Of a stretch of DNA of 44,580 bases, positions 19,447 through 36,707 are shown piece after piece. This DNA comes from Magnetococcales bacterium (GTDB taxonomy: Bacteria; Pseudomonadota; Magnetococcia; Magnetococcales; UBA8363), in the NCBI GenBank assembly GCA_015228925.1, contig JADGCQ010000017.1, positions 1 through 44,580 of the forward strand, given 5' to 3'. The notes beneath the pieces are model-generated. The model made no database searches and was not told where the DNA came from. It worked only from the letters and a program-made list of their open reading frames with translations. The position numbers and the translations under genes are program-made. Every line of letters starts with the position of its first letter. Positions within the stretch are counted from its first letter, which is position 1.

Positions 19447-21576
19447 ATGTCCGTGTTTGAAACGTTATCCCGATTTTTTGCTAAAAAACAGGAGTCAACA
19501 ACCTCTGTCAAGGTTGATGAAAAAAAACCTGATATTCGGCATCTTTACATCCATGTCTCCTCAGCCGGTTGGCAAAGCATACTGTTCGACGAGCAGGGGA
19601 TTGTTGGCGATGAAGTTAAAGATAATATTATTTATGAAAAGGAAATTGATCGAAAACAGGGAGGGGTATCCACCCCAGGGGCACGTATCGAAGCGGTTCT
19701 TCGGAATGCCATTCAGGCCAATAAAAAACAGATTGATCATGTTAACAAAATATGTCTTGTTCTCGGTGATGTTGGTTTTGAATATTCCGATAGCAAGCCA
19801 GCGGAACTCAGCGCAGCGGCTTCGGGTACCGTTGTTCGCCGTTTTGGCCAGGTCCGACTGAACGGTACCGACGTTTCCTATGGCAAGGGGGTTTTTCCCC
19901 GTTCCAAAGATAATCCCTCGGAATCTAAAAATACAATCTATACGTTTGTTGATGCCAATTTTCTCCGTTCCTTGTTGGCCACATTCGACGTTCATGGTTT
20001 GAAGGTTCTCGATGTGGTTCCCAAAGGCTATCAAGTCATCTCCCGTTCTTTTGAAAATCCTGGGCAGCCTTACGGAGCTTTGGATCTTGGGGGGTTGACG
20101 ACCACATTTTATCTGGCCAATCCCCACTCGGGGAACTTGTTGGTGCGCACCATTCCAGTTGGTTATTTGACCATGGTTTACGCTGTGGCGGAAGGATCTG
20201 GTATTTCTCTGGATGAGGCGGTCGCGTTATTGAAAGATCGTGACCATGTGCAAAAAATAAATCCATACAGTAGTTTGGCTGATGAGTCTGTGGTTCGGGC
20301 CATGTCGGAGTTCAGTCAGGCATTGCATCCAGTGATGAAAAGGTTGCTCGATGAACTCCACCGTTCGCTGGATTATTTTACCCTCCAAAAAGTCTCTGGA
20401 CGACCCGGAACCTTAGAAGCCTTTGGGGAGACAAAACGGGTCAATGGTTTTGTGGAATGGATCCGTCGGCATTGCAATCTACAGGTTGTCCAAGGGCCAT
20501 CCAATCGGGAACTTCTGGAAACCTTGGCATTGAAAACCCAGGTTCCAAAGCCATGCAACCTTCTTTCAGGTTCTGAAACGCCACTGCTCACTGTGGGACG
20601 GACTGAGTATGTTTTTTCTCTCGAACGTGGCTATGTCAGTGCCTTGGATATTCTCAAAGGCAAAGAGGCCGAAGCCAAACTACAAAATCGCAGGGATGGT
20701 GAAAAACGAGGTGCCAAAGGGGGGCGCAGTGGTGTGCGTCAACCCAAAGGTGGTCCCTCACGCCGTGTGAGACCGGGTGCTAAAACAGGGTCTTCCACAA
20801 ACGGTTCCCAAGGATTTTCCAATCATGTCTGGGTGAAAAAGGTCACTGCCTTTTTTCACAATGACGGGAGTGTGAACGCGGGTACCCAGGGTGAAGATGG
20901 TAAATATTTTGCTTTGTTTGCCCTCAGTGCCATGATTCTTGTCTATCGGGGTTGGACCATGATTGATGCCGAGCGGAACCTCTTCAAAAAAAAGACCGAG
21001 GCTTTCTTGAAAGAACGGACCTCATGGGATGAGAAGATTCAAAAGTTCAGTAAAACTGGGGTCAAGGGATGGTCCATGGGAAATTCGGGGGATATGGCGA
21101 AGATTCTTTGGACCGAGAAATTTGTCCTTATCGGTGATCATCTGAATGATCATATCTGGTTGTCAGATCTTTATCTTGAAAAAGGGCATGGTACGAAAAG
21201 AGAAGAGGATCCGGAAAAAAAAGGTGAATCATCTGGAACCTCTTTGATGATTCAAGGCAATGTCCTCCCATCGACGGATGGACATATCCAACGCATCTCT
21301 GAATTCCTCGGGAATATGCTTTTGGACAAAGAAGGGTTCATGAGTGATTTTGATAATATCACTTTCCATGGTGCCGAACTTGTTCCGGCGGACAACATGG
21401 TCCGGTTTAAGCTTAAGGCCTTGTATAATGCCGATAAGCGTATCAAAGCCGCCCAGGATCTGCCGGAACAGGGTCGTGTTGGAAAGGATGCCCCGCAGCC
21501 GGGATTGGCCGATATGAATAAAAATATAAAGAATCGTGAACAAATTCAGGAAAAGGCACTCAGAGGCGGGCGATAG
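19447..21576 (+). CDS. PilM-PilN-like fusion, pilus alignment protein
   Basis: The 709-residue protein appears to join two components of the type IV pilus inner-membrane complex. Residues about 30-405 resemble the actin-like PilM/MshI domain, with a nucleotide-site motif in YGALDLGGLTTTFYLA and a typical ELHRSLDYF helix. A basic Gly/Arg/Lys-rich linker (about 415-455) leads to one transmembrane helix (about 483-500). Beyond it is a PilN-like periplasmic part with a coiled coil, LNDHIWLSDLYLEKG, LMIQGNVLPSTDGHIQRISE and a final FDNITFHGAEL strand. Separate PilM (about 350 aa) and PilN (about 180 aa) are the norm. The next gene follows after five bases. The linker, single start and uninterrupted frame argue for a true fusion. 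Confidence 0.8.
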   Translation: MSVFETLSRFFAKKQESTTSVKVDEKKPDIRHLYIHVSSAGWQSILFDEQGIVGDEVKDNIIYEKEIDRKQGGVSTPGARIEAVLRNAIQANKKQIDHVNKICLVLGDVGFEYSDSKPAELSAAASGTVVRRFGQVRLNGTDVSYGKGVFPRSKDNPSESKNTIYTFVDANFLRSLLATFDVHGLKVLDVVPKGYQVISRSFENPGQPYGALDLGGLTTTFYLANPHSGNLLVRTIPVGYLTMVYAVAEGSGISLDEAVALLKDRDHVQKINPYSSLADESVVRAMSEFSQALHPVMKRLLDELHRSLDYFTLQKVSGRPGTLEAFGETKRVNGFVEWIRRHCNLQVVQGPSNRELLETLALKTQVPKPCNLLSGSETPLLTVGRTEYVFSLERGYVSALDILKGKEAEAKLQNRRDGEKRGAKGGRSGVRQPKGGPSRRVRPGAKTGSSTNGSQGFSNHVWVKKVTAFFHNDGSVNAGTQGEDGKYFALFALSAMILVYRGWTMIDAERNLFKKKTEAFLKERTSWDEKIQKFSKTGVKGWSMGNSGDMAKILWTEKFVLIGDHLNDHIWLSDLYLEKGHGTKREEDPEKKGESSGTSLMIQGNVLPSTDGHIQRISEFLGNMLLDKEGFMSDFDNITFHGAELVPADNMVRFKLKALYNADKRIKAAQDLPEQGRVGKDAPQPGLADMNKNIKNREQIQEKALRGGR

Positions 21577-21581
21577 CACCT

Positions 21582-22388
21582 ATGGAAGTTTTTTTGCGTC
21601 GATATCAAAACTTTTTAATTTCAACATTATTCATGTTGTCCGGGTTGTTTGCTGTGGGGTATTCTGAATTTTATTCACCCTATACGATCTATGCCACCGA
21701 TGCCGCAAAGAAAACTTCACAATTAAAAAAAGAGATAGAGAATATCGGAGAGAAGGATAAGCAGAAAGTTACCGAAAATCAACAGGCCGAGAAGGGAATT
21801 CATTTTTTACCCGATTTTTTAGGCCGTATCAACGATATCGCCCATCGGCAACAGGTCATTATCAACCGTCTTTCTCCTGAGAAGGAGGAGAGCCTTAAAT
21901 TTAAGTTGGAAATGACCTCTGAGTATCGGACATTCATTAAATTTATCGCCCAGTTGGAATCTTTGAATGTTATCATCGATGATATTCAACTCCACCCCTA
22001 CGATGCGCGTAAGGTGACCCCCGTTCATGCCATCTCTTTCACCATCATTCCCCGGAATGATGCCGAACCGCTGTCGGCAGAGCGGCAAAAAAAATTGCAA
22101 GAACTGGTTGCCAAACCGGGTCAGCGTAACCCTTTTCAACGATTGGCTCCCGGTATTGTCGATCACTTGGTCGATTTAACCTGGGTTGTCAAACTGGGTG
22201 GTATTGGCGTCGCACTGGACGGCAAGCGTTATGCCACGATCGATAATTCAAGCTATCGGGTCGGGGATACCCTGGAAGGGCGTGTTATCACGGAAATTAC
22301 CGAATCCAAGGTGTTCATGGAAAAAATTGATGATGATGGCGTTACCCGTTTCGTCCTATCCAGTCGAGAAAAGAAAAAGGGTGAATGA
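21582..22388 (+). CDS. PilO-PilP-like fusion, pilus alignment protein
   Basis: The 268-residue protein has one N-terminal membrane helix (about residues 11-30). A periplasmic coiled coil and a PilO/MshJ-like ferredoxin-fold region cover about 70-155 (NRLSPEKEESLKFKLEM, FIKFIAQLESLNVIIDDIQLHP). The C-terminal 85 residues look like the PilP/GspC homology domain: LVDLTWVVKLGGIGVALDGKRYATIDN, then YRVGDTLEGRVITEITESKVFME. In the family, PilP is a lipoprotein that joins the PilMNO complex to the secretin. Here that domain is attached directly to PilO. It ends 13 bases from the convergent platform gene. Confidence 0.78.
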   Translation: MEVFLRRYQNFLISTLFMLSGLFAVGYSEFYSPYTIYATDAAKKTSQLKKEIENIGEKDKQKVTENQQAEKGIHFLPDFLGRINDIAHRQQVIINRLSPEKEESLKFKLEMTSEYRTFIKFIAQLESLNVIIDDIQLHPYDARKVTPVHAISFTIIPRNDAEPLSAERQKKLQELVAKPGQRNPFQRLAPGIVDHLVDLTWVVKLGGIGVALDGKRYATIDNSSYRVGDTLEGRVITEITESKVFMEKIDDDGVTRFVLSSREKKKGE

Positions 22389-22401: not shown

Positions 22402-23442
22402 TTATTTGACGACGTTGCCCATGTCGAATACCGGCAGGAAGGAGGCCACCATCATCCCAGCGATGGCTATGCCGATGACAACCGTTAAAATGGGGTTGAT
22501 CAATCCTGTGATGATTTGCACTTGGTTGTCCAGAATTCTTTCAAAATAATCGGCAGCACTGATTAACAACTCATCTAATGCCCCTGTCTCTTCCCCCGTA
22601 GCAACCATTTGTAAAACAATTCCGTGGAATATTTCATATTCTTCAAAGCTTTGTGTAATGCTAATCCCGGTGGCAACGTCATTGGTAATTTGGTACAGTA
22701 CTTCCTCAATGTATCGGTTTCCCGTGACCGAGGCGGCCAATTCCAAGGCGTCCAATAAGCGCACCTCATTATGCAGTTGGACCGCAAACGTCCTTAAAAA
22801 ACGGGCCATGGCGGTCAGACGCCACAACCGACCTAAAAGGGGTATTTTAAGCTTGAATTCATCCCAGATGAGGCGACCATATTGATTGGTTATCCACCAG
22901 ATCCATGCGGCCATCGCGATGCCCATTACTGTCAGAATGACAAACCAGTTATCACGCCAAAAATTGCCGATTGCCAACAAAATCTGTGTGGGAATGGGGA
23001 GTTCTTTTTTGAATGATTTAAACAAGTTGTCAAATCGTGGCAGGATGAAAAACACCATTAGATTGAAGACCGTGAAAAAGGCGGCCAACATGAAGATGGG
23101 ATAGGCGACGGCACTGCGTACTTTGTTGCCAATGGCGTCTGCTTTTGTCAGATACTCGGATATTTGGGTGAGGGCCTCTGGCAAGCGGCCAGAATTCATG
23201 CCGGCGCGGGTGACATTGACAAAAATTTCATCAAAGAGTTGTGGTGAATAGTCCTCCAATGAGTCGCTGAAGTCCACACCGTGGCGCACATTTTCGGCAA
23301 CGTCATAAATGGCGGCACTCAACTCCTTGCCAGGGGTATCGTGGGCAAGATTGTCCAGTATGCTTACCAGGGGCATCTGGCTGCGGAGCATGGAGGCAAA
23401 TTGACTGGTAAAAATAAGAATTTCCGATTTTTTGACCGCCAT
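22402..23442 (-). CDS. Type II/IV secretion platform protein (GspF/PilC/MshG family)
   Basis: This integral inner-membrane protein sits under the growing pilus and couples it to the assembly ATPase. The 346 residues hold two GspF domains (about 5-115 and 205-330), with three membrane segments near 115-140, 160-185 and 310-340. Family motifs include FTSQFASMLRSQMPLVSIL, VRSAVAYPIFMLAAFFTV, ARFLRTFAVQLHNEVRLLDALELAA and ATGEETGALDE. Normal members have about 400 residues; this one lacks the first 50-60 cytoplasmic residues. ATG 23442 follows AAGGAAA, and I see no coding extension upstream, so the short form seems real. It is nine bases downstream of the ATPase gene. Confidence 0.94.
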   Translation of the reverse strand: MAVKKSEILIFTSQFASMLRSQMPLVSILDNLAHDTPGKELSAAIYDVAENVRHGVDFSDSLEDYSPQLFDEIFVNVTRAGMNSGRLPEALTQISEYLTKADAIGNKVRSAVAYPIFMLAAFFTVFNLMVFFILPRFDNLFKSFKKELPIPTQILLAIGNFWRDNWFVILTVMGIAMAAWIWWITNQYGRLIWDEFKLKIPLLGRLWRLTAMARFLRTFAVQLHNEVRLLDALELAASVTGNRYIEEVLYQITNDVATGISITQSFEEYEIFHGIVLQMVATGEETGALDELLISAADYFERILDNQVQIITGLINPILTVVIGIAIAGMMVASFLPVFDMGNVVK

Positions 23443-23451
23443 GTAATTTCC

Positions 23452-25542
23452 TTAGACCTCCTCACCCAGGAGGCGAATGACCTCTCTCAGGGTAGTTTTT
23501 TGTTCTTTTACCAGGTGCATCCCGTGTTCGATCAAGGTTTTCATCCCGGCATCGCGTGCTATTTGTTTTAACTTGGTGCCGCTGATATGGCCCGAAATGA
23601 TCAGATCCCGGGCTTCATTGGTCATTTCAAACATTTCGAAAACCGGCTGACGCCCGCTGTAGCCTGTATTGAGACAGCGTTCACAACCTGCGCCCAAATA
23701 ATAATCATCGTCTGGGTCGATGGTGATATCACGAGCCGCCAAGCGTTCGGCGGTGATGCCATCTTGGAAAAGAAGTTCCAGCATCCGCTCACCACCGACG
23801 GAAATGCGGCAGTTGGGGCAGATGGTACGGATCAAACGTTGGGCGATGGCCAAGGAGAGGGCGGTGGCGATCAGATAGGGTTTGACCTTCATATCCATCA
23901 ATCGGGTGACCACCCCCACGGCATCGTTGGTATGAATGGTGGAGAACACCACATGCCCGGTCAGAGCCGCTTGCACCGCCATGGCGGCGGTTTCATCATC
24001 ACGGATTTCGCCGACCATGATGACATCGGGATCTTGACGCAAAATAGACCGGAGACCTTTGGCAAAGGTCAGGTCGATCTTTTGATTGACCTGCATTTGG
24101 TGGACTCCGGGGAGGCGGTATTCTACGGGATCTTCCACCGTCAGGACATTTTTGATGGCTTTATCGATGCTCCCCAGACAGGAATAGAGGGTGGTTGTTT
24201 TGCCAGAGCCGGTGGGACCGCTGATCATGATCAAACCATGGGGGGCTTCAATCTTGGTCTTGAGGAGTTTGAGATCCCGATCCAAAAATCCCATGGTATC
24301 GATGATGGGGCTTAACAGATTTTTATCCAACAAGCGGAGTACAAATTTTTCGCCATGTTCGGTGGGATAGGATGAAACACGGACATCGATGGGGTTGCGC
24401 AGGATGACGGTACTGAAGCGACCATCCTGAGGGTGGCGTTTTTCTGCCACGTTCATATCGCATAAAATCTTCAACCGGCTGACAATCTCCGAATGCAACT
24501 GCATGGGCAATGTGATTTCTGTGTGGAGTATGCCATCCACGCGGTTGCGGACCATCATCAACTTTTCGCCCGCCTCGATGTGAATGTCGGATGCCCGCTG
24601 TTTATAGGCACTGAAAAGAAAATAATTGACCATCATGGGGACATCGACTTTATCGCTTTGTTCCCGGATGTTCCGTTCTTCTTCTGCTGAAAAGTCGGTA
24701 CTGAGTCCTACTTTTTGGGATTCATCATCGCCATGAATCTCTTTTCGTCGCAGGATTACCTTTTTGAGCAGTTCGGGTGTTGTCATGACCACATCTGCTG
24801 GAAAACCGCTGCAACGCTCAAACCAGTCAAGATTTTCCAGGTTGAAAGGGTCATAAGTGGCGTAGCGTGAACGATTTTCCTGGAGCGGCTCTAGTGCAAC
24901 CATACCAAGTTCCAAGGCTTTGTCGTAAGAGAGCCAACTGGTTGCTTTGATATCGTTCATCAGATTATTTTCATCGAGTATAAATTTAATCTTTAATTTT
25001 TCTTCAATGAGTTTAAGTATAGAAGCTACTTTTTCGGTGGTTTGACGGAGCATCAGGATCGTAAAAAAGGTTCGTCCGGTCTCTTGGGCTTCGTCAAGAG
25101 TTAACGCGATACTGCGCCGCTCCAGGAGTCCGGCATCGATCATGGCTTGGGGAATATCCGCATTCAGACAGATCTCGACCCAGTTGCGTCCAAGGCCGCG
25201 CCGTTCCTTCCAATAGTCTTCATCAAGTTGTTTTTTTGACTTATTTTTGCGGGTGATGGTGGATAAATCGGGGGCGTCGCCCAGATAAGGGTTTGAGGGG
25301 GTTTCATCGTCTTCGGTAGAAAAAGCACTATCCGACCCCAGCATGGTCGCGTCATACAGATCAAAGACGGTTTTTACAGGTTCCGCTGGTGCGGATTGAT
25401 TCGGTGGTGGCGGCTTCATGGTGACGATATCGGCAGAGTCTTCAACTTCTCGGATCTCTGTGATTTCTTCATCAGGGTCGTCTGCATCCAGGAGGATGTG
25501 TTGGGAGGTGGTGGTATTCACGTTTGGCTTATCCAAAATCAA
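23452..25542 (-). CDS. Pilus/secretion assembly ATPase (GspE/PilB/MshE family)
   Basis: This cytoplasmic hexameric ATPase powers pilin polymerisation. The 696 residues start with about 100 acidic, low-complexity residues. A MshEN-type N-terminal domain covers about 115-290, then comes the RecA-like motor with Walker A GPTGSGKTTTLYS (about 440) and the Asp and His boxes. Walker B is VIMVGEIRDDETA. A tetracysteine zinc site follows (CPNC near 574 and CERC near 617). The start is uncertain: the frame opens with TTG 25542 and has no clear ribosome-binding site. It lies 24 bases after the kinase gene and is followed by the platform gene, the standard motor-platform pair. Confidence 0.95.
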   Translation of the reverse strand: MILDKPNVNTTTSQHILLDADDPDEEITEIREVEDSADIVTMKPPPPNQSAPAEPVKTVFDLYDATMLGSDSAFSTEDDETPSNPYLGDAPDLSTITRKNKSKKQLDEDYWKERRGLGRNWVEICLNADIPQAMIDAGLLERRSIALTLDEAQETGRTFFTILMLRQTTEKVASILKLIEEKLKIKFILDENNLMNDIKATSWLSYDKALELGMVALEPLQENRSRYATYDPFNLENLDWFERCSGFPADVVMTTPELLKKVILRRKEIHGDDESQKVGLSTDFSAEEERNIREQSDKVDVPMMVNYFLFSAYKQRASDIHIEAGEKLMMVRNRVDGILHTEITLPMQLHSEIVSRLKILCDMNVAEKRHPQDGRFSTVILRNPIDVRVSSYPTEHGEKFVLRLLDKNLLSPIIDTMGFLDRDLKLLKTKIEAPHGLIMISGPTGSGKTTTLYSCLGSIDKAIKNVLTVEDPVEYRLPGVHQMQVNQKIDLTFAKGLRSILRQDPDVIMVGEIRDDETAAMAVQAALTGHVVFSTIHTNDAVGVVTRLMDMKVKPYLIATALSLAIAQRLIRTICPNCRISVGGERMLELLFQDGITAERLAARDITIDPDDDYYLGAGCERCLNTGYSGRQPVFEMFEMTNEARDLIISGHISGTKLKQIARDAGMKTLIEHGMHLVKEQKTTLREVIRLLGEEV

Positions 25543-25566: not shown

Positions 25567-27117
25567 TTAAGTGGGTGTTTCTTCTGTAAAGACCAGACGA
25601 AAGCCGATGGACCGACTTCGTTTGTCTGGAGGCGCGTGGTGCCGAGATGCGCATTGTCCCTGGGAAATGGCACTGTCAAAGGCACCACCGCGAATGATTT
25701 TATCCCCCGTACTGGCTTTGTAGAGAGGATCCTGGTCTCCCAGGTCCGTGCCAATATGGGGTTTGCCATTCCAGGTGTCTCGACACCATTCCCAGACATT
25801 ACCGCTCATGTCATTGATTCCGTATGGATTTTCTCCGGCGGGATGGGCATCCACGGGGGTGGTGACTTCGCTTTCGTTGTACAGGTTGGCCCGTCCTGGT
25901 GAAAATGGTTCATCTCCCCATGGAAAGAGAGGCTGTTTCCTCCCCGCTTTGGCGGCATATTCCCACTGGGCTTCGGTAGGGAGGTTGCCACCAGCCCACT
26001 GGGCATAGGCCAGGGCATCGGCATGGGTGACAAATACAACCGGGTGGTCGGGTTTTCCATGGATCGGATGGTTCAGATAAGGCGGCTCTGAATAACCAGT
26101 GGCCTGTATGAAGGCCTTGTACTCGCGCACGCGCACGGGATAGATAGCCATCCGAAATCCAGACATGTGTACTTTCATGGTGATACCGCCACCTTTGTTG
26201 GATCCCATCGTGAAGGTGCCACCGGGAATCGATACGACTTCCTGTTTTTGGGATTGATCTTTTCCGTGGTCTGCAAAACGGGGGTCGCTCAGGGAGATGC
26301 AATCCAAAACTTTGGTTAGTTCTTCAGCACTGCCGATCCTCTCCTGGGGGTGGTAGGAGAGCAGTTTAATGATCACCTGATCCAGGGCGGAGGGGACGGC
26401 GGCGCAAAAGGAGGAGGGATAGGGGATGGATGCCGGGTCGATTTTTGGCGGTGTTTTACCGGCGTAAGTTTTTTTTAACGAATCTGTCGGCTTGACACCA
26501 TGGGAAAACAGTTCATAGGCGATGACACCCAGGGTGAACAGATCTGACCGTCCATCCACCTTGTCAGGGGTCTCCCGCTGTTCTGGTGACATGTAGCTTG
26601 GTGTTCCGATAACATATTTCTGATTCTTTGCTTCATGCTCAAACATGGCGGTACCAAAATCGATGATGACCGTGCGCGATGGGTCACCATCAAGCAGGAA
26701 GACGTTATCGGGTTTCAGATCACGATGGACAAGTTTTTTTTCTTGAATCTTGGTTAGGGCCGCGCTCAATTTTTTAAAGATGGTCAGACGATCCTGGGCC
26801 GTTTCCAGGAGTCGATGACGGTTTTGTTTTTGCCATTTTTTCAGCTCGATCCCTTGGATTAAATCCATGACGGTCCCCACACCTCGGGGACCCTCATACA
26901 CGTCATGGATGGGACAGATATTTTCGTGTCGCAGATCGCGGGAGATGACAACCTCCCGGTGCAATGCGGCCACCGATGCCGGGTCGGCACAGCGTTCTTT
27001 TTTGAGGAGTTTGACGGCTACATCGCGTTTGAGTATGGTGTCAAACACGCTGTAGACCTCTCCAAACCCCCCTTTGCCAATTTCCTTCCAGTTGGTGTAG
27101 CGTTCTTCGCCCGGCAT
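25567..27117 (-). CDS. Ser/Thr protein kinase fused to a SUMF1/FGE-like domain
   Basis: The 516-residue protein starts with a complete Hanks-type kinase domain (about 8-270): glycine-rich loop GKGGFGEVYSVFD, Lys36, the catalytic HRDLKPDN (131-138), DFG (153-155) and GTPSYMSPEQR. All catalytic residues are present. A formylglycine-generating-enzyme-like domain (about 293-512) follows, with VSIPGGTFTMGS, LPTEAQWEYAAKAGR, NPYGINDMSGNVWEWC and a final SRSIGFRLVF. I see no active-site cysteine pair of true FGE enzymes near GQCASRHH, so it may bind a ligand rather than oxidise cysteine. No transmembrane helix is seen. It is embedded among pilus genes between a prepilin and the assembly ATPase, so control of the machine is a reasonable guess. 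Confidence 0.93.
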   Translation of the reverse strand: MPGEERYTNWKEIGKGGFGEVYSVFDTILKRDVAVKLLKKERCADPASVAALHREVVISRDLRHENICPIHDVYEGPRGVGTVMDLIQGIELKKWQKQNRHRLLETAQDRLTIFKKLSAALTKIQEKKLVHRDLKPDNVFLLDGDPSRTVIIDFGTAMFEHEAKNQKYVIGTPSYMSPEQRETPDKVDGRSDLFTLGVIAYELFSHGVKPTDSLKKTYAGKTPPKIDPASIPYPSSFCAAVPSALDQVIIKLLSYHPQERIGSAEELTKVLDCISLSDPRFADHGKDQSQKQEVVSIPGGTFTMGSNKGGGITMKVHMSGFRMAIYPVRVREYKAFIQATGYSEPPYLNHPIHGKPDHPVVFVTHADALAYAQWAGGNLPTEAQWEYAAKAGRKQPLFPWGDEPFSPGRANLYNESEVTTPVDAHPAGENPYGINDMSGNVWEWCRDTWNGKPHIGTDLGDQDPLYKASTGDKIIRGGAFDSAISQGQCASRHHAPPDKRSRSIGFRLVFTEETPT

Positions 27118-27154: not shown

Positions 27155-27760
27155 TCAAGCGCCTCCGTTACATGCGGCTATGACAGTGCCGTCTGCGGCG
27201 CAGCATCCGCCCGCCACGGCTGTAGCGGTTGGATCGATATAGATGGCGCGATAGACGTTACCTTCCCATTCGGCGGTATCGGCAGCCCGGCTGGAATAAA
27301 GGACAAACTGGTCTGTTTCTTCCCCTTTCCACGCCTTGACGCAGATGGCCAGGGTGTCGTTTGCCCCTTCCCAGGTTCCGATTGCTGCGGCAATTTCATA
27401 GGTAAACTGGGCGTCCTCGGCCAGGGTAAGTTGGGGGATGAGGGAAGTCAGGGTGGTCGCTAAGGCAGCCGTCAGGCTGAGGGTCTTTTTTTCGTTGATC
27501 TTGGTCACTATGGCGGCAGCGGTCAGACGGGGGTGGGAGTCCTGGTAGCCACCGATGGCCTTGACAACTCTTCCGCATTGTTCAACCGCTTCCGAGGTTT
27601 CTGCCGTTCGGATGAACGAGGTCATTTTGGGTAGGCCGATGGCGGCCAAAATGGCGATAATAGCGACGACCACCATTAATTCGACCAGTGTAAAGCCATT
27701 TTCATGGATGTTTTTTGTGTTGATGCCAGCGGAAGCATGTCTGTGACAACCTATACTCAT
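27155..27760 (-). CDS. Prepilin, type IV pilin-like (possible major pilin)
   Basis: The 201-residue precursor has a 22-residue leader ending in HENG, then the processed N-terminus FTLVELMVVVAIIAILAAIGLP with the conserved Glu5. Cleavage would follow the glycine. The globular domain ends in a Cys-rich tail (GGCCAADGTVIAAC), likely a disulfide loop as in many pilins. I prefer ATG 27760, which has GGGGGA at a good distance; ATG 27775 would lengthen the leader to 27. The leader is long for type IVa pilins, more like MSHA or type IVb. Its isolation from the other four prepilins may mark it as the main subunit. Confidence 0.92.
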   Translation of the reverse strand: MSIGCHRHASAGINTKNIHENGFTLVELMVVVAIIAILAAIGLPKMTSFIRTAETSEAVEQCGRVVKAIGGYQDSHPRLTAAAIVTKINEKKTLSLTAALATTLTSLIPQLTLAEDAQFTYEIAAAIGTWEGANDTLAICVKAWKGEETDQFVLYSSRAADTAEWEGNVYRAIYIDPTATAVAGGCCAADGTVIAACNGGA

Positions 27761-27856
27761 GAAATAGTCCCCCATAATTTTGTTGTGGTGGTTGACGAAG
27801 GTTCACATCCGGCATAGCCCGGAAACTGTGCGGAATGCCAAAAGCGTTTCATTCCT

Positions 27857-28552
27857 TCAACGTCTTGTTGGCGTAAAACGGACTAAAACTCTTGAAGATG
27901 CTTTATTTTTTCCATATTGATATTCCATGCGAACGTAGTTACCCACCAGGGGGCTGTACCACCATTTTTCTACGCCGGTCCAATCACTGTCCAAGCTTCG
28001 TGTTTTCCACTCCATGACCCAGCAGTAAAAACTTCCGGCAGGGACGGTCACTTTTTCCTGACGAAAAACGCGCCAGGAGGTTTTGTGGCGGCGCAATTGG
28101 TCATCTGCCTTGTATTCCCGAAGAAACAAAACGCTTTTCCCTTTTTCCAGGGGGAACAGGGAGGATGGATCCGGGGAGCGATAGACAAGTTTGCGCAGGC
28201 TATCGCCGGTTTTGGAGCCGATTTTAAATAATCCGTCGCGGATCACCCAATCACCCATTTTATCCAGGCGATCAAGACGGGCCGTCGTTCCACGGACTTG
28301 ACCCACCGCCAGATGATAACCATCGCCATAAAGCCATGTATCCCCTTCGTGCCAGCGCAGTGGACCAGGATCGAGGAGGGATTCCAATTCCAGATCCGAT
28401 TCTTCCAGGGTATTTTTGCCGACGGTTGGCGTATTGGGTACGTCTTGCACGATCGGCATCACCGGTGCCACCGATGTTACCGGAGGCTTGGTGACACACC
28501 CAGCCATCAGCACAAGGGCCAGTACGATCATCCATGGTTGGTGCCACTTCAT
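27857..28552 (-). CDS. Lipoprotein in pilus locus
   Basis: The 231-residue protein begins with a lipoprotein signal, MKWHQPWMIVLALVLMAGC, with the lipobox cysteine at residue 19. A Pro/Val-rich spacer follows. The rest is a beta-rich domain (LRWHEGDTWLYGDGYHLAVGQ, KSVLFLREYKADDQLRRH, VEKWWYSPLVGNYVRME) that I do not recognise. It could be a pilotin-like or secretin-associated lipoprotein, as it lies between secretin and pilin genes, but no pilotin signature is visible. ATG 28552 has GGAGGGG upstream; the longer open frame (to 28720) would bury the lipobox inside the protein and overlap the upstream gene. Confidence 0.8.
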   Translation of the reverse strand: MKWHQPWMIVLALVLMAGCVTKPPVTSVAPVMPIVQDVPNTPTVGKNTLEESDLELESLLDPGPLRWHEGDTWLYGDGYHLAVGQVRGTTARLDRLDKMGDWVIRDGLFKIGSKTGDSLRKLVYRSPDPSSLFPLEKGKSVLFLREYKADDQLRRHKTSWRVFRQEKVTVPAGSFYCWVMEWKTRSLDSDWTGVEKWWYSPLVGNYVRMEYQYGKNKASSRVLVRFTPTRR

Positions 28553-28580
28553 CAATCTTTTCCCCTCCTGCAAACGCAAG

Positions 28581-29030
28581 CTAGAACAGCTTGTAAAAAA
28601 TACCATATTTATGAACGGGCAAATCCCATTGACCGACGGGTGACTTATTATCCCAGACCAAGGCATAGGTAATGGCTGGCAGTTGTCCCGCTTTGATTGC
28701 ATCGTTACTGGCATGGGCATGAATATTCAAGCGAAGCCCCGCGCCATCGTTGGAGGCAAACACTTCATATGCAAAATCAGGGTTATCGGGCTTTGGTAGT
28801 TCCAATGCGGTACGGATGTCATCAGGCATTTTCCCGGGTGCAAAATAGATAAATGTACCATGTTTCTTATAATGGTCCTGTTCCAGGTCAAGTAGTTTTT
28901 TGACAATCTTTTCCACGTCATCACGGCGATCTTTCTCGAAGATTTCTTGATCGAGTATGGGGAGAACGATAGCCACCAGGAAGAACACGGTCCCCACGAC
29001 CCAATTCAATGTCGTCAAACGCTGGATCAC
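28581..29030 (-). CDS. Pilin-shaped membrane protein without a clear prepilin site
   Basis: The 149-residue protein has a short N-terminus and a hydrophobic helix at about residues 10-26 (WVVGTVFFLVAIVLPIL). A charged helix (DVEKIVKKLLDLEQDHYKKHGTFIYF) and a globular C-terminus follow. This matches a pilin's alpha-1 stalk and head, but there is no Gly-Phe cleavage site and no Glu5. I do not recognise a family. It may be an uncleaved pilin-like anchor, or simply a single-pass membrane protein of the complex. GTG 29030 is the start, with GGAG eight bases upstream. It is followed by the lipoprotein gene after 28 bases and preceded by the secretin 43 bases away. Confidence 0.75.
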   Translation of the reverse strand: MIQRLTTLNWVVGTVFFLVAIVLPILDQEIFEKDRRDDVEKIVKKLLDLEQDHYKKHGTFIYFAPGKMPDDIRTALELPKPDNPDFAYEVFASNDGAGLRLNIHAHASNDAIKAGQLPAITYALVWDNKSPVGQWDLPVHKYGIFYKLF

Positions 29031-29073: not shown

Positions 29074-30948
29074 TCATTCATCCTCCGAGGGATCGGCGGT
29101 CAGATCAAGCAGTGGGCTGTGATGACGAATATCCTCCTGGGAATGTTCCAATTCCTGAAGACGCCCCTGGGCGTATTCCTGTAATTGCACCCCTTTGCGA
29201 TCATTCGTGATGCTTTCGGGGATAAAGACCTTCGGGGTGATCAGGAATACGGTTTCACGTTTGCCTTGTGAGGAGGTATTGGTGCGAAACATCGCCCCCA
29301 GAAGGGGGATACTGCGTAAGAACGGGATACCATCTTCCGCTTCAACCCGGCTGGTATTGAACAGGCCGCCCATAACAAAGGTGCTTTCATCGGGGATGAT
29401 CACACTGGTTTGTACCTCCTGGGCTGCCGTTTGCACGGCACTGGTGCTGACGGTACCAATGGATGAATTCTCAACATTGATATCGAGACGCACCATGGGT
29501 TTTGGCTCTGAAGTTTTCCCATCTCCCTTGGGTATGACCGATGGGGTGATGTCCAAGGAGACGCCGGTGCGCACCGTTTTGATGTCGGCCTTGGTGCCGT
29601 CGCCGGTGGTTACGACAAAATTGATGCTGTTGGAATTGGTGATTTTGGCTTGCAGATTGTTGAGCGTGACGACACGGGGGGAGGCGATGGTTTGCAGTTT
29701 GTTTTCGTTCGCCATGGCCTGCAAGGTTGCGTCCAACAGGGCACGGCTCCCCTTGTAGAGGAAGGTGGCCCCCAACCCAGAGGCGTCGGACTGCACCTGA
29801 TAATTTCCCACCTTCAGCGGATCGTTGGCGACACCCGGGGCTTTGGTCAATTCCACGGCACTGACAAGATTGTTCGGAGGGACCAACTGGTTGGAATTTT
29901 GGCCAAAATTTTGGCCGTGGCCCCAGCGGACCCCCAGTTGCTCGGTGACGCTGGCTTCGCCATCGACGATCATGACTTCAATTTGTACCAGGGGAACCGA
30001 TTGGTCCAACGACATGACCACACTCTGGATGAGTTCTATCTGCGCCAAAGTCCCCTGAACGATCACCGAATTGGTCCGCCGATCAATGGAAATGATTGGC
30101 TTCGAGGATCTCCGGGATTGCGAAAGCGGATCTTCCTGATTATTGGATTCTTCCCGGCGTCTGGATTTGCCATCAACGACCGTGATCTCCTCGCTGCCGA
30201 CAAAAGCCTTCAGCGAATCGATGATACCGGGAACTTCAATATCCTGCCCCTGAAACGTGGTTTTTGTATTGCCCACGGTGGCATTGCGCAGGGGGATGAT
30301 CCGTATTTCCTTGTGGAAATCCTGCTGTTCTTCACTATAGCGCAGTTCTTCACGTTCTCGTTGCAATTCAGCCAGTTTTTTCTCTTTTCCGTCTTTGATC
30401 ACCCTGTCGATACGCTCCATCAATTTTTTTTGTTTATCCACCTTCGCCCGGTCCCCTTCGAGGAATATGGCACCGGTAGCCGGGTCGCTGGTGATGGTAA
30501 CCGATTGATCCAACAGCTTGAATTGAGCCAGAGACGATTTGATCTCATCCACGGTGCCAAACTGGGGGATAAAAACATCTCCCAGGAGGTCCAGGTCCGT
30601 CGCCGGAGAAATCGTGACCGTGTTGGTGGAATCGGAATAGCTGAAGGTCAGGTTGTACTCTTCCATGAGTTTGGAAAAAGCGACTTTCAGCGGGGAATTG
30701 GTGAACACAAAGCTGGCAACGCCCCCGACGCCGGGACGAAAGAAAACCTCCGTTTGGTTGAGTTGCAATATCTCACGGAGAACGATCCTGATGTCTTCTT
30801 CAAAGGTTGTCTTGGTGAACGTGACGTCGGATTTCCAGGTCAAATCGGCAAAGGCCGACGGTATTGGAATCAGTACCCAAGCCATGACAATGCTAACCAG
30901 AAGCATGCGGAATAATGAAAAAAGGCCAAATATCAAGATATTCCCCAA
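29074..30948 (-). CDS. Outer-membrane secretin (MshL/PilQ/GspD family)
   Basis: This protein forms the outer-membrane channel through which the pilus or pseudopilus works. The 624-residue frame has an N-terminal export signal ending near IPSAFA. Next come N-domains with an STN-like part (FTNSPLKVAFSKLMEEYNLTF) and a charged helical insert. The secretin core (about 320-590) shows VQIEVMIVDGEAS, LQTIASPRVVTLNNLQA and the signature VIIPDESTFVMGGLFN with IPFLRSIPLLGAMFR. The size and N-domain layout resemble MSHA MshL. The start is uncertain: TTG 30948 gives a longer signal with an Arg, while ATG 30906 gives the same signal starting at MLLVSIV. Neither has a strong ribosome-binding site. Confidence 0.94.
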   Translation of the reverse strand: MGNILIFGLFSLFRMLLVSIVMAWVLIPIPSAFADLTWKSDVTFTKTTFEEDIRIVLREILQLNQTEVFFRPGVGGVASFVFTNSPLKVAFSKLMEEYNLTFSYSDSTNTVTISPATDLDLLGDVFIPQFGTVDEIKSSLAQFKLLDQSVTITSDPATGAIFLEGDRAKVDKQKKLMERIDRVIKDGKEKKLAELQREREELRYSEEQQDFHKEIRIIPLRNATVGNTKTTFQGQDIEVPGIIDSLKAFVGSEEITVVDGKSRRREESNNQEDPLSQSRRSSKPIISIDRRTNSVIVQGTLAQIELIQSVVMSLDQSVPLVQIEVMIVDGEASVTEQLGVRWGHGQNFGQNSNQLVPPNNLVSAVELTKAPGVANDPLKVGNYQVQSDASGLGATFLYKGSRALLDATLQAMANENKLQTIASPRVVTLNNLQAKITNSNSINFVVTTGDGTKADIKTVRTGVSLDITPSVIPKGDGKTSEPKPMVRLDINVENSSIGTVSTSAVQTAAQEVQTSVIIPDESTFVMGGLFNTSRVEAEDGIPFLRSIPLLGAMFRTNTSSQGKRETVFLITPKVFIPESITNDRKGVQLQEYAQGRLQELEHSQEDIRHHSPLLDLTADPSEDE

Positions 30949-31295: not shown

Positions 31296-32021
31296 TCATG
31301 GCAGCATCTCCCGACGATACTCCAGAATCCAACTTTCTCCGGGGCTTCCCGTACCCGGGGTGTCAGGGGAAGTACTCAGTTTGAGGAAACTATCGCGGCA
31401 TGTACTTGTTAGGTTGTTGTCGTCATCGTCGCCAACCTCCAGTGGCTCACCCGGTTCTGGGCGCATGCACAACTCAAACACCATTGAGGGGATATGATTG
31501 CGTATTTGTCGCACTCCTGGGCTGATGGTCGTCGGTGCCAGAAGGTTTCCACCCTCATCACGGGGATCCTCCAAAGTCATGGTGATATCCAGCCGACCCG
31601 TATCATCAATACCGTCGTTCGTGTTTCCGTTCCCCAGAGTTATCGCCCCCTTGACAGCGAACGTATAGTGCGTGTCGTTGACGGTGTACTCGTTATAGGT
31701 AAAGTCGGCGGTATTGTCGGTGAACCCGTTGAGTTCATCCATGAAATCATTCAGTTTGACGATCTTATCACTGTCAGCCAGAAAATCGGCGGGGGCCAAT
31801 TGTCCCTCTTTCATGAAACGGCTGAGGGTATAGTTCATCATCCCAACCATGGCCCAATGGACCCGAATCTGAGTCAGATTGTCTTCCACAGCCTCAATTT
31901 CTGTGGTCAACAGATGGCTAAACAAGGAAGAAACGAGGATCATGATGAAAACCATAAAGGCCATGGTCGTGATCAGAAGGCTTCCCCGTTGTTGTGGATG
32001 ATGGAAAACTGAATGCGTCAT
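31296..32021 (-). CDS. PilX/GspK-like minor prepilin
   Basis: The 241-residue protein has a 13-residue N-terminus ending in QQRG, then SLLITTMAFMVFIMILVSSLFSHL. The RG-plus-hydrophobic start without the FTxxE motif is typical of PilX and MSHA MshP-like minor pilins, which help start the fibre. The globular part is acidic, with a likely calcium- or disulfide-loop region near the C-terminus (ELCMRPEPGEPLEVGDDDDNN). It is the fourth and last gene of the prepilin run and begins four bases after the end of its upstream neighbour. Confidence 0.83.
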   Translation of the reverse strand: MTHSVFHHPQQRGSLLITTMAFMVFIMILVSSLFSHLLTTEIEAVEDNLTQIRVHWAMVGMMNYTLSRFMKEGQLAPADFLADSDKIVKLNDFMDELNGFTDNTADFTYNEYTVNDTHYTFAVKGAITLGNGNTNDGIDDTGRLDITMTLEDPRDEGGNLLAPTTISPGVRQIRNHIPSMVFELCMRPEPGEPLEVGDDDDNNLTSTCRDSFLKLSTSPDTPGTGSPGESWILEYRREMLP

Positions 32022-32024
32022 GGC

Positions 32025-32615
32025 TCACTCTTTTTTGTTTGTCCCCAGGGTGAAAACGGTCCAAAACGTCTCGGAATAGTCACGCCGTGGCAGTTTTTTT
32101 TCCATGGTGATGAAAACCTGCTCTGGTTCCATGACCGTGAAAGAGACTTCGATGGTCTTGTTGCCGACGGAGCGGACCGACTGCGGGGACAGTTCGTCCA
32201 CATAACCGGCGATGGTGTGGCTATCTCCGGTGCTTGTACAGCTTTCCAATGGGGTGTCTGCCCCTTGACAGTCGAGATCGAATGCGTCGGGATAGCTGCG
32301 GCCCAACAAGGTCGCATCACCACCGACGGCATTTTGTAGTTTCCATCGGTGGTCGTCGGTGATAGTCAGTTCATGGCTCCATGGATCCCGTTGATGGCCA
32401 TGGTATCCGGGAACCCACTCAGTATTGGCTTTTCCACCATCGGCCAATGTATGAAAAAGATTGCGTGCCTCACTGTTAAGTGTGACCCGGACCATCGCCT
32501 CTCTGGTCATCTGGTAGGTTTGATCGAGCAACTCAAACAGTGCCAGTGAACACAAAAGAAATAAAATTCCGGCGATCATCAGTTCTATGATGGTGAACCC
32601 AGCAGCCTGATTCAT
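32025..32615 (-). CDS. PilW/GspJ-like minor prepilin
   Basis: The 196-residue precursor has the short leader MNQAAG followed by FTIIELMIAGILFLLCSLALFELL, with Glu5 after the cleavage glycine. The position between PilV-like and PilX-like genes and the length match PilW or MSHA MshO. ATG 32615 gives this perfect leader and is preceded by GAGGGCGG. It overlaps the end of its upstream neighbour, so the pair is translationally coupled. The open frame extends further upstream to 32783 but the added residues are not leader-like. The C-terminus (VLGTNKKE-type basic end) is unremarkable. Confidence 0.85.
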   Translation of the reverse strand: MNQAAGFTIIELMIAGILFLLCSLALFELLDQTYQMTREAMVRVTLNSEARNLFHTLADGGKANTEWVPGYHGHQRDPWSHELTITDDHRWKLQNAVGGDATLLGRSYPDAFDLDCQGADTPLESCTSTGDSHTIAGYVDELSPQSVRSVGNKTIEVSFTVMEPEQVFITMEKKLPRRDYSETFWTVFTLGTNKKE

Positions 32616-32623
32616 GACCGCCC

Positions 32624-33346
32624 TCAGGGTTCTGGTTCGGTTACGATGCTTTGAAATGAGCGTTCTCCCACAATGGTTTTCAATGTAATCGTTTCGGGTT
32701 GAGGCCACATGGTTTCCAGGGGGTCGGTGGCCTCTTCGGGATAACGATAGGGATAATCGAGAAATAAGGTCAGTATCTGGCATGGGTTCGATCCGCCATC
32801 TCTTTCATAGCAAACTTGAACGCTGGCGTCTGCCAGGATCCAACTGATTTGGGCGGTGATGCGCTGTTCTGCATCCAGCCAAACGACATTGCGATCTTCA
32901 TCGCTGTCCCCTGGTGCGCCACGATCCAGGAGATAAATGGTTCCTGGTGTAAACTGGGCTAAATCGGTGACCGTGAGCTGAAGTGTGGTGAAATCGGCCT
33001 CACCAAGAGTCAGGCCAAACACGATATGGGGAATTGTTCCCGGGTCGTCTTCGGATAACCAAGTATGATGCGTGTAGTTTTTTGAGCTGTTATTGGTGGG
33101 GATGGGTATGCCATGACGGTAGAGTGCCGAAAGACGTTCCATGTGACCGTGGAGGACAAAAATCGCTTTTTGCCGCAGAGTCACGCGAAAAAATTGATCA
33201 TGGACCAAACTCCATATCCCACTCAGGCCCAGAACCAAAATGCCGATCAACACGGTTCCAATCAGGATTTCCAACAGGGTAAATCCCCCAGGCGTGGGGG
33301 CATTCCTGGTCCAGGTGAAACGTTGGGTCTCCATGGGCCGGATCAT
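32624..33346 (-). CDS. PilV/GspI-like minor prepilin
   Basis: The 240-residue precursor has a leader of about 20 residues ending in TPGG, then FTLLEILIGTVLIGILVLGLSGIW with Glu5. This is a standard type IV prepilin N-terminus. The globular region (DEDRNVVWLDAEQRITAQISW, CYERDGGSNPC) has a likely disulfide loop. It begins with an ATG that shares its first base with the TAA stop of the preceding prepilin gene (TAATG), so translation is coupled. ATG 33334 is a second possible start and would shorten the leader by four residues. It may prime fibre assembly together with its three neighbours. Confidence 0.87.
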   Translation of the reverse strand: MIRPMETQRFTWTRNAPTPGGFTLLEILIGTVLIGILVLGLSGIWSLVHDQFFRVTLRQKAIFVLHGHMERLSALYRHGIPIPTNNSSKNYTHHTWLSEDDPGTIPHIVFGLTLGEADFTTLQLTVTDLAQFTPGTIYLLDRGAPGDSDEDRNVVWLDAEQRITAQISWILADASVQVCYERDGGSNPCQILTLFLDYPYRYPEEATDPLETMWPQPETITLKTIVGERSFQSIVTEPEP

Positions 33347-33984
33347 TACAACAACACGTCGCTGATGGTCATCCCATTTTGCCAGTCAAAAACCCGCGTG
33401 ACCTCATCGATTGTGATTTCCTGGCTGCCATCGGTGGGCGGTGGGTAGCGCAAGACGACAACGCGACCTTTACCGCCGGGAAGCTCTGAATCGCTTCCGA
33501 CCCATCCCGATGCCGGAAGTTTCGCATCGGCGGTTACGCAGGAGATATCCGTCCCCCGAACCAAAACCGAAGCGTGATCATCCCGTAGCACGGCCCATAT
33601 TTCAAAACCCTCGTCTGTTTCCAAATCCGTCGGGGTGATGAAATCGTTAACATCAAACGTGACCATGAAACAAAAGTCGGCGGCATCTTTAAGATCTATA
33701 CCGAGAAAATCTTCCAAAAATTGTTCATCGAAGGCACTGTAGTCGGTAGTGCCGATGGTTCCCCCTGCGGTATATTTGGCCTTGTCTTTCATCCAAACAC
33801 CCTGGTAATTGTGGTTGGCGCGCAATTTGGCCGCCAGGGCCATGAGATAAGGCTCGGCAGCCTTGGCATTGCCGACCCGGATGAAGTTTGCAAAACTTCG
33901 CGTTCCCAAAGCGGTGAGAATGCCAATGATGACCACGACCGTCATCAGTTCTACCAGAGTGAATCCCGGAGATTTTTTGAACAT
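33346..33984 (-). CDS. PilA/GspG-like prepilin
   Basis: The 212-residue precursor has the short leader MFKKSPG and then FTLVELMTVVVIIGILTALGTRSFANFI, with Glu5. The alpha-1 stalk continues into an amphipathic helix (NAKAAEPYLMALAAKLRANH). The head contains one cysteine pair (CFMVTF, ISCVTADAKL). It is first of the four-gene prepilin run and 12 bases downstream of the GspB-like gene. In this arrangement it could be the major pseudopilin, and the pilin at 27155-27760 the alternative. The sequence alone does not decide which subunit dominates. Confidence 0.9.
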   Translation of the reverse strand: MFKKSPGFTLVELMTVVVIIGILTALGTRSFANFIRVGNAKAAEPYLMALAAKLRANHNYQGVWMKDKAKYTAGGTIGTTDYSAFDEQFLEDFLGIDLKDAADFCFMVTFDVNDFITPTDLETDEGFEIWAVLRDDHASVLVRGTDISCVTADAKLPASGWVGSDSELPGGKGRVVVLRYPPPTDGSQEITIDEVTRVFDWQNGMTISDVLL

Positions 33985-34742: not shown

Positions 34743-36707
34743 CTATTCCAGTATTCCTGGCATTGTTGGGATCCAACGTTTGGGATCATGGGCTTGGAGG
34801 TCCAGCTTGAGCAGGGTGAACGGGCCGGCAATCCCATCGGCGAACAGACGATTTTCCTTCTGAAACCGCTGAAGACGTTCCTGAAGTTCCGGCCCGTAAA
34901 AGTCGGGGGTTGTCGTCATCAATGCCTGGGATTGGATCGTTGTCAGTTGGTTGCCCAGCCAGGCGATGTCTTGGCCCTGTTCTCCAGGGATCAGTCGGGA
35001 TTGACCGGCGGGTGTTGCGCGAAAAATCAGGGTAAAACTTCCCGGCCAGGAGGGATCGACTTCTGTAAAGGATAGCTCTTCCCTTTTGGAACCCAATACC
35101 AGGACGACCCGATTCTCGTTCATGCCGTTCACGACGGCATAATGATCTTTTCCTCCCCCGCTTTTCAGATGCAGCAAGACTGGAACACCCAGTTCCCTCA
35201 GGGTTGCCCAGCCACCTTTCTGGGTGTGGCACCGCAAGCCAAACGCGGCAATCTGATCACAGGTGGGCATCCCTTCCAACTCTGAAAGATCGGATCGCCA
35301 TAATCTCAGGAGGGTTTTTAGAGTCACGCCGTAACTGGTCGGATGTCCCGGATCGGCGAGGATGCTGTCCATTCGTGTGGTATCGGATTCGTGAATCTGG
35401 TGCTGGTCTGGATTGGGTGATGCGTCGGTCGTGGCCAGTTGGGACCACGCGATGTCGATCTTACCCTTGAAAGCCTCCCGCTCGGATGGAGATTCCATTG
35501 GCGGAATGACCCGCAATGGTTTGGGGTTGGGGAGCGATATGGTCATGGGTTTTATGATCGAGGATGTCGGGGGTATCGCTGGCAGGGGAGGCGCATTCTC
35601 CTTTTCAGGGATGATCGCTGGGGGGAGGGTGTTGTCAGGGATCGATGCAGATGGGTCCAGGGGCGGTATCACAGCGATGTTTGCGGCATTCGGTGGCGTT
35701 GCCTCGAAGATTGTCGGTGCCGGGGGATTTTTTATGGTTGAGATCGTGGTAGGGCTGGACACCTGGATATGTCCCCGGCCCATGTTCCATGGAACATGTA
35801 GGGAGGCATCCTGTATTCTTTCCCGACCGAGCCAGAGGAACCCAAGGACCAGAAATGCCGCTATCCCTGTCCAAAATCTCCAGCGCCGACGGGGATATCC
35901 GTGGCCAGCGATTTCTACCGCCGCCCGATGGATCGTCCTGATGCCGATACGTTTGCGGTTCAACGTGTAGGCACCCAGGAGTGCGCGGTCGCAGATTTGG
36001 TTGATCAGGCGTGGAATCCCTTTGGAATAATAATGTACCAAGCGCATGGCCAGAGGGCTAAACAGGGGGGCCGAACATCCAGCTACAGAGAGGCGATGAT
36101 GGATATAATGTTTTGTTTCCATGCCGTTGAATGGGGTGATATGAAAACGGGCGGTGATGCGCTGGTTGAATTGGCGTAACCCAGGCTGGGCGAGGATATC
36201 GAGCAATTCCGGTTGGCCAATCAGGACGATTTGCAGCAATTTATCGGTCGCCGTTTCCATATTGCTCAACATGCGAATCTGTTCCAAGAGGTCAAGGCTT
36301 AGATTTTGGGCTTCATCAAGAACCAGGATGGCCCTCTTCCCCTGAGCGTGGGCGGTGAGCAGAAAATGGTTCAACCGGTCAAACAAAGACTTCAATGTGG
36401 CATTCTCATGATCATAAGGGACTTCAAATTCGTCGCATATGGAAGCGATCAATTCCTGGGCTGTAAGACGGGGATTGAAGATCAAAGCCAAGGAGATATT
36501 GCTGGGTAATTGTTCAAACAAGCAGCGGGAAACGGTGGTTTTTCCGGTTCCCACCTCACCAGTCAGGAGAACGAAACCAATACTGTTTTGCAGGCTGAAA
36601 TACAGATGGGCCAAGGCTTCGCGGTGTCTTTGGCTCAAAAATAAAAAACGCGGGTTAGGCGTGATGGCAAAAGGGGATTCGTTCAATTTGAAGAATGATT
36701 GGTACAT
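34743..36707 (-). CDS. GspA/ExeA-like AAA+ ATPase (MshM-type) with wall-binding domain
   Basis: The 654-residue protein has an N-terminal ATPase domain with Walker A GEVGTGKTT (50-58) and Walker B DEAQNL (131-136). A long ATPase C-region follows, then a membrane helix (about 277-294) and a Pro/Ile-rich periplasmic spacer (about 300-420). Next is a C39-peptidase-like fold and a peptidoglycan-binding domain at the end (LQERLQRFQKENRLFADGIAGP). The C39-like part keeps a His (DHYAVV) but I see no catalytic cysteine, so it is likely inactive, as in other GspA proteins. GspA-GspB pairs open the wall for secretin assembly. It starts the whole minus-strand locus, and the gspB-like gene follows after 17 bases. 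Confidence 0.92.
   Translation of the reverse strand: MYQSFFKLNESPFAITPNPRFLFLSQRHREALAHLYFSLQNSIGFVLLTGEVGTGKTTVSRCLFEQLPSNISLALIFNPRLTAQELIASICDEFEVPYDHENATLKSLFDRLNHFLLTAHAQGKRAILVLDEAQNLSLDLLEQIRMLSNMETATDKLLQIVLIGQPELLDILAQPGLRQFNQRITARFHITPFNGMETKHYIHHRLSVAGCSAPLFSPLAMRLVHYYSKGIPRLINQICDRALLGAYTLNRKRIGIRTIHRAAVEIAGHGYPRRRWRFWTGIAAFLVLGFLWLGRERIQDASLHVPWNMGRGHIQVSSPTTISTIKNPPAPTIFEATPPNAANIAVIPPLDPSASIPDNTLPPAIIPEKENAPPLPAIPPTSSIIKPMTISLPNPKPLRVIPPMESPSEREAFKGKIDIAWSQLATTDASPNPDQHQIHESDTTRMDSILADPGHPTSYGVTLKTLLRLWRSDLSELEGMPTCDQIAAFGLRCHTQKGGWATLRELGVPVLLHLKSGGGKDHYAVVNGMNENRVVLVLGSKREELSFTEVDPSWPGSFTLIFRATPAGQSRLIPGEQGQDIAWLGNQLTTIQSQALMTTTPDFYGPELQERLQRFQKENRLFADGIAGPFTLLKLDLQAHDPKRWIPTMPGILE

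Follow-up and report, generated by a model that had tools for sequence, protein, structure and literature searches.

The kinase-SUMF1 fusion gene described here appears to be a regulator that evolved specifically for a pilus/secretion machine, because the adjacent motor ATPase in relatives gained both a forkhead-associated (FHA) domain and series of probable phosphorylation sites. The gene was found in the window, i.e., the whole 44,580-nt stretch of DNA of a Magnetococcales bacterium analyzed in this study, which is contig C88 of a 4.25-Mb draft assembly of 219 contigs. ORF and Pfam analyses bore out the original prediction that the gene is located between a prepilin gene and an assembly ATPase gene on the same strand and with short gaps, which were 37 nt to the upstream prepilin gene and 24 nt to the downstream ATPase gene (Table 1).

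Table 1. Features of the pilus/secretion locus in the window
Feature	Position	Strand	Remarks
PilM-like and PilN/O-like pair	19447-22388 (19447-21576; 21582-22388)	+	Convergent with the operon; no Pfam match
T2SSF inner-membrane platform protein (MshG-like)	22402-23442	-	Pfam, tree
T2SSE assembly ATPase (MshE-like)	23452-25542	-	696 aa; E 2e-120 (Pfam); without FHA in the window copy, FHA in most relatives
Acidic N-terminal tail of the ATPase, ~100 residues	25243-25542	-	Single candidate phosphosite motif (YDATMLGSD, residue 64); tail proposed as target of the kinase
Kinase-SUMF1 gene	25567-27117	-	516 aa, ATG start; Ser/Thr kinase (7-265) and SUMF1/FGE-like domain (292-509)
Prepilin with N-methylation motif (N_methyl)	27155-27775	-	Directly upstream of the kinase gene
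DUF3108-like protein	27857-28720	-	Marker gene of the locus type
Small conserved locus protein	28581-29030	-	No Pfam match
Secretin (MshL-like)	29074-30948	-	Pfam
Four prepilin/minor-pilin-type genes (31296, 32025, 32624, 33346)	31296-33984	-	N-methylation motif matched in three, one weakly
GspA/ExeA-like ATPase with peptidoglycan-binding domain	34743-36707	-	Pfam

Judged by its gene content, the cluster is an MSHA-like locus for a type IV filament or for secretion, in which secretin, T2SSE, T2SSF, prepilins and a GspA/ExeA-like ATPase are all present. A gene for an SNase-like protein was also located upstream of the kinase gene on the minus strand, between the minor-pilin-type genes and the GspA-like ATPase gene. 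The PilM-like and PilN/O-like pair also adjoined the locus in genomes G028 and G011. As a correction to the original prediction, both genes run toward the operon from the opposite strand. No evidence was found for the PilM-like protein as a target of the kinase. No MshEN match was found on the ATPase of the window, and those on the ATPases of G041 and G001 were weak and under the curated cut-off. Promoter and terminator scans gave counts that were about as expected from shuffles.

The Pkinase (E 1e-36) and FGE-sulfatase (E 2.5e-51) domains of the window protein were both identified with Pfam. Alignment of this protein with its orthologs located a glycine loop (G14-G16), K36, E55, HRD (131-133), K135, N138, DFG (153-155) and SPE (177-179), including the Lys36, HRD and DFG that had been read from the sequence before. 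With this motif set, the domain is a Hanks-type Ser/Thr kinase, with phosphotransfer activity predicted. Alignment of the SUMF1 domain to human formylglycine-generating enzyme (FGE) revealed a cysteine at the position of Cys341 and none at that of Cys336, in agreement with the earlier remark that an enzyme-type cysteine pair was not visible. The single cysteine was kept in every slot protein aligned. As only one of the two active-site cysteines is present, the SUMF1 domain is probably no FGE, and this assignment was rejected. Being no intact FGE by its sequence, the domain is probably a sensor, so the suggestion that it senses a ligand is plausible.

The possibility that the gene is the target of a diversity-generating retroelement was also rejected. 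A search of its own draft genome for a template repeat matching the 3' end of the gene returned only the gene itself, and a gap among the 219 contigs is possible. The same genome contained 18 kinase/SUMF1-type matches, of which the others were at most 39% identical and matched over one domain. A structure model of the window protein, built with a single homolog, had a mean pLDDT of 30 for lack of alignment depth and was uninformative.

Of the 61 genomes screened, six Magnetococcales genomes other than the window's own, from six families, contained seven full-length orthologs between them, with identities of 47-53% and a wide gap to the next matches. All seven occupied the slot between prepilin and ATPase genes, and none was found outside it. 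The proposed check of conservation beside gspE-like genes in relatives thus gave seven of seven orthologs adjoining an ATPase gene. The gap between the kinase and ATPase genes in relatives was as small as a 4-nt overlap (G007; L119: 10507/10504). The block of genes for secretin, small protein, DUF3108-like protein, prepilin, kinase, ATPase and T2SSF was kept as far as the contigs extend, and the flanks, i.e., the GspA-like, minor pilin and PilM-like pair genes, were rearranged between loci. Genome G028 possessed two copies with the kinase in the slot (L120, L123) and further locus fragments, and FHA was found on one of the two ATPases but not on the other.

The DUF3108-like and T2SSF genes, used as markers, led to more divergent versions of the locus, the slots of which varied: that of G041 contained a 797-aa kinase-insert-SUMF1 gene, that of G011 a kinase and, in an overlapping frame, a SUMF1-TIR protein (L170:6330-8982), whose TIR domain was joined to the same SUMF1 lineage, and that of G045 SUMF1 alone. 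The operon of G045 also included a gene for a KAP-family P-loop NTPase (L176:6167-7768). Moreover, the slot of G001 contained a second prepilin gene instead of the kinase, and those of G004 and G006 were empty. Related loci without the kinase had been named in the original prediction as evidence against a built-in role, and this applies in part: G001, G004 and G006 are such loci, and the seven orthologs keep the slot. Given these three loci and the one with SUMF1 only, the kinase would be an accessory regulator. The kinase-less G004 and G006 encode a protein of ~1170 aa after the T2SSF gene (L173:10672-14232, L174:11146-14625), the G004 copy of which contains WD40-like repeats and a cyclase domain; this protein is perhaps a replacement regulator. 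These comparisons are based on small numbers of draft genomes, with contig ends in G012, G017 and G044 and uncertain gene starts in the divergent loci.

Among 399 genomes of the phylum, strong matches to the DUF3108 marker were restricted to Magnetococcales, and four weak ones were found outside. In other phyla, two of the 79 other loci from a genome scan, which kept 80 loci, had such secretion genes in the flanks covered (L052, L056), each with a match to SUMF1 only and without a kinase.

The T2SSF proteins of the locus formed one clade apart from other T2SSF paralogs, with a support of 100/100. Similarly, the slot kinase domains, including those of G041 and G011, formed one exclusive clade (10 among 63 kinases, SH-aLRT 99), as did the slot SUMF1 domains, including that of the kinase-less G045 (11 among 121, SH-aLRT 96). 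Both domain trees are quick trees with long branches for G011, G041 and G045, and their exact branching is unsure. Because the slot genes form one exclusive clade in both, the fused gene most likely entered the slot once and was lost later in some lineages, which is the simplest reading of the trees. That only the SUMF1 domain persisted in G045 points to a separate role of this domain in the machine.

An N-terminal FHA (phosphothreonine-binding) domain was found in 8 of the 14 ATPases of the locus (G037, G007, G028 copy a, G016, G017, G012, G041 and G001), and the ATPase adjacent to the kinase carried it in 7 of the 10 kinase-bearing loci. Pfam confirmed the domain in all five FHA ATPases scanned (G037, G028a, G016, G041 and G001), and all eight domains aligned, with the phosphothreonine-contact positions GR, S-R/K-H/Q and NGT largely kept. 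A single chain made up of FHA, linker and T2SSE ATPase was thus seen in eight related loci, but not in the window copy.

In five of the ATPases, the linker after FHA contained 4-10 acidic-x-Thr-hydrophobic motifs, such as TDATVVRPRD/DATVVRP of G037 and DEATIMAPA of G028a. Shuffles of the same sequences had mean motif counts of 0.13-0.29 and a maximum of 3. Across all DNA examined, clusters of at least three motifs were found only in these five ATPases, in a kinase-match ORF (L027) and, in G037, in an FHA protein encoded next to a second kinase (L118). The arrays occurred in 5 of the 10 loci with the kinase but in none of the 4 without it, in a small sample of related loci. The original prediction had proposed the assembly ATPase as a substrate, and the ATPase is now the best predicted candidate: all orthologs adjoin its gene, FHA is present in most relatives and tandem phosphothreonine-like motifs in five.

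Similar motifs were also observed elsewhere. Upstream of the locus in G037 are genes for a cNMP-binding kinase and the FHA protein, which has DATVM-type motifs (L118:1814-4992). The kinase-match ORF (L027:1462-2994) has an array of the DDATILAGG type and is from G019, whose contig keeps only the secretin and DUF3108-like genes of the locus. Finally, a small protein without Pfam match is encoded between the T2SSF and GspA-like genes of three relatives (L118:14736-15326, L119:14176-14847, L177:1032-1805) and was not found in the window; its N-terminal part contains repeated acidic D-x-T-R motifs, and it is a possible further substrate of the kinase.

Different from the ATPases of most relatives, that of the window had no FHA in a search with a profile of the locus FHA domains, and the same was found for G028 copy b, its nearest relative in the T2SSF tree. 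The idea of a hidden FHA domain was rejected on the basis of this search. The window ATPase has ~100 N-terminal residues before the part shared with its relatives, and the one motif in them is, taken alone, within chance. As both this ATPase and that of its nearest relative are without FHA, the window lineage, read from sequence, is one in which the reader on the motor is missing and the kinase intact. Phosphorylation in this lineage would act directly on the tail or via an FHA protein encoded elsewhere. Eight FHA matches were found in the window's genome, none of which was at the locus. On another contig of this genome (C72, L217:3631-5453), a PP2C-phosphatase-like gene, the product of which is a candidate phosphatase partner from elsewhere in the genome, lies beside a cyclase-like gene overlapped by an FHA match.

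The mechanism proposed here builds on what was observed directly, i.e., the domains of the protein, the operon-like gaps between genes, conservation of the slot, a single origin, and FHA domains and motif arrays in the ATPases of relatives. The SUMF1 domain would bind a ligand or a machine part and set the activity of the kinase, which would then phosphorylate threonines in the N-terminal tail of the neighboring assembly ATPase. In most relatives, the FHA domain of the ATPase would bind the tail phosphothreonines within or between hexamer subunits, and this binding would switch assembly or secretion. The FHA domains and motif-rich linkers of the relatives' ATPases suggest such phosphorylation and reading, and we consider it probable that a cytoplasmic, machine-dedicated kinase phosphorylates the ATPase tail and that the ATPase's own FHA reads it in most relatives. 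More tentatively, and with slightly less than even confidence, the motor might be its own phospho-switch, in which the operon-encoded, SUMF1-sensing kinase writes several phosphothreonines on the motor tail and FHA of the same hexamer reads them, providing graded or cooperative control of assembly, and of which some lineages, including that of the window, keep the writer without the reader. Several observations are against the mechanism, including the ATPases of the window and G028 copy b without FHA, the FHA ATPases of G012 and G041, which are found with the kinase but have no motif by the pattern used, the FHA ATPase of G001, whose slot has no kinase, and the lack of a phosphatase gene at the locus.

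The kinase might instead act mainly on another machine part, such as T2SSF, the prepilin, a secretin-associated protein or the D-x-T-R protein of relatives, or on a regulator, and the FHA ATPase would be recruited to that phosphoprotein. PpkA of Agrobacterium tumefaciens phosphorylates TssL, which recruits Fha in such a manner (PMC5995506), and the presence of the D-x-T-R protein in three relatives and of the kinase in two loci with an FHA-less ATPase also points to another target. The arrays, however, are in the ATPase beside its FHA, and no cluster was found in any other locus protein, which makes another main target unlikely. Still less probable is that the protein does not regulate assembly but is a conflict or defence sensor placed in the pilus operon, where it might, for instance, protect the pilus from phage. 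SUMF1/FGE-type CLec domains and kinases belong to proposed conflict systems (PMC10907252), the PADLOC kinase models PD-T4-6 and mad6 matched the protein, and the SUMF1-TIR fusion of G011 and the KAP NTPase of the G045 operon are consistent with such a role. The PADLOC matches were, however, mostly within the generic kinase domain and the neighbors are pilus genes, and assignment to PD-T4-6 or the MADS kinase mad6 was rejected accordingly. Moreover, the slot is fixed over six families, the template repeat was not found, and the ATPase co-evolved FHA and arrays. Finally, kinase and SUMF1 domains are abundant in these genomes, with 18 matches in the window's own, and some homologous loci are without the kinase, but one origin, a slot kept despite flank rearrangement, the overlap in G007, conserved catalytic motifs and a neighboring ATPase with FHA and arrays make it very improbable that an ordinary gene of a common family merely hitch-hikes there and has no effect on the machine.

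Similar to the MSHA pilus locus, the cluster contains secretin, T2SSE, T2SSF, a GspA/ExeA-like ATPase and several prepilins. Standard MSHA loci are not known to carry such a kinase, and the cluster may also differ from them in MshEN, for which two relatives gave weak matches and the window none. The threonine phosphorylation pathway of type VI secretion (PpkA, Fha, PppA) also combines a locus-encoded Hanks kinase with an FHA reader for post-translational control of a secretion machine, and its PpkA site in TssL, LPpTVVEITEE, has a pTVV that resembles the DATVV motif of the relatives' ATPases (PMC5995506). The cluster is nevertheless of the secretin/T2SSE/T2SSF type, with FHA fused to the relatives' ATPase and SUMF1 to the kinase, and no Tss or phosphatase gene was among the cluster genes examined; the type VI pathway proper was thus ruled out. 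Class III CpaF of Tad pili consists of FHA, a disordered region (IDR) and then the ATPase (PMC12019362), a layout shared with the relatives' ATPases. Different from class III CpaF, the locus described here encodes MshG-like T2SSF, MshL-like secretin and GspA-like proteins, its kinase gene is directly upstream of the ATPase gene, and the window copy is without FHA. The archaellum network of Sulfolobus, i.e., the FHA protein ArnA, ArnB and the kinases ArnC and ArnD, also controls a type IV pilus-like structure by Ser/Thr kinases and an FHA protein (PMC5300886, PMC4858521). However, ArnA/ArnB repress expression and are encoded elsewhere, whereas FHA is here on the motor of relatives and the kinase in the operon. 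The FGE/CLec conflict systems share the kinds of domains (PMC10907252), but not the fixed place in a pilus operon, and no template repeat was found here. As far as our searches show, none of the type VI pathway, class III CpaF and the archaellum network has this combination. Nor was a system with FHA and PilB or MshE, or with FGE, kinase and pilus, found described in the open-access literature.

Discussion of how MSHA-type and type IV pilus motors are controlled centers mostly on c-di-GMP and partner proteins. Because a substrate, candidate sites and a sensor domain are specified in the model proposed here, it is directly testable, and it hints at a function of FHA also on further assembly ATPases, including class III CpaF. 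If true, it would mean that Hanks-type signaling is built into a pilus/secretion motor, as it is in type VI secretion.
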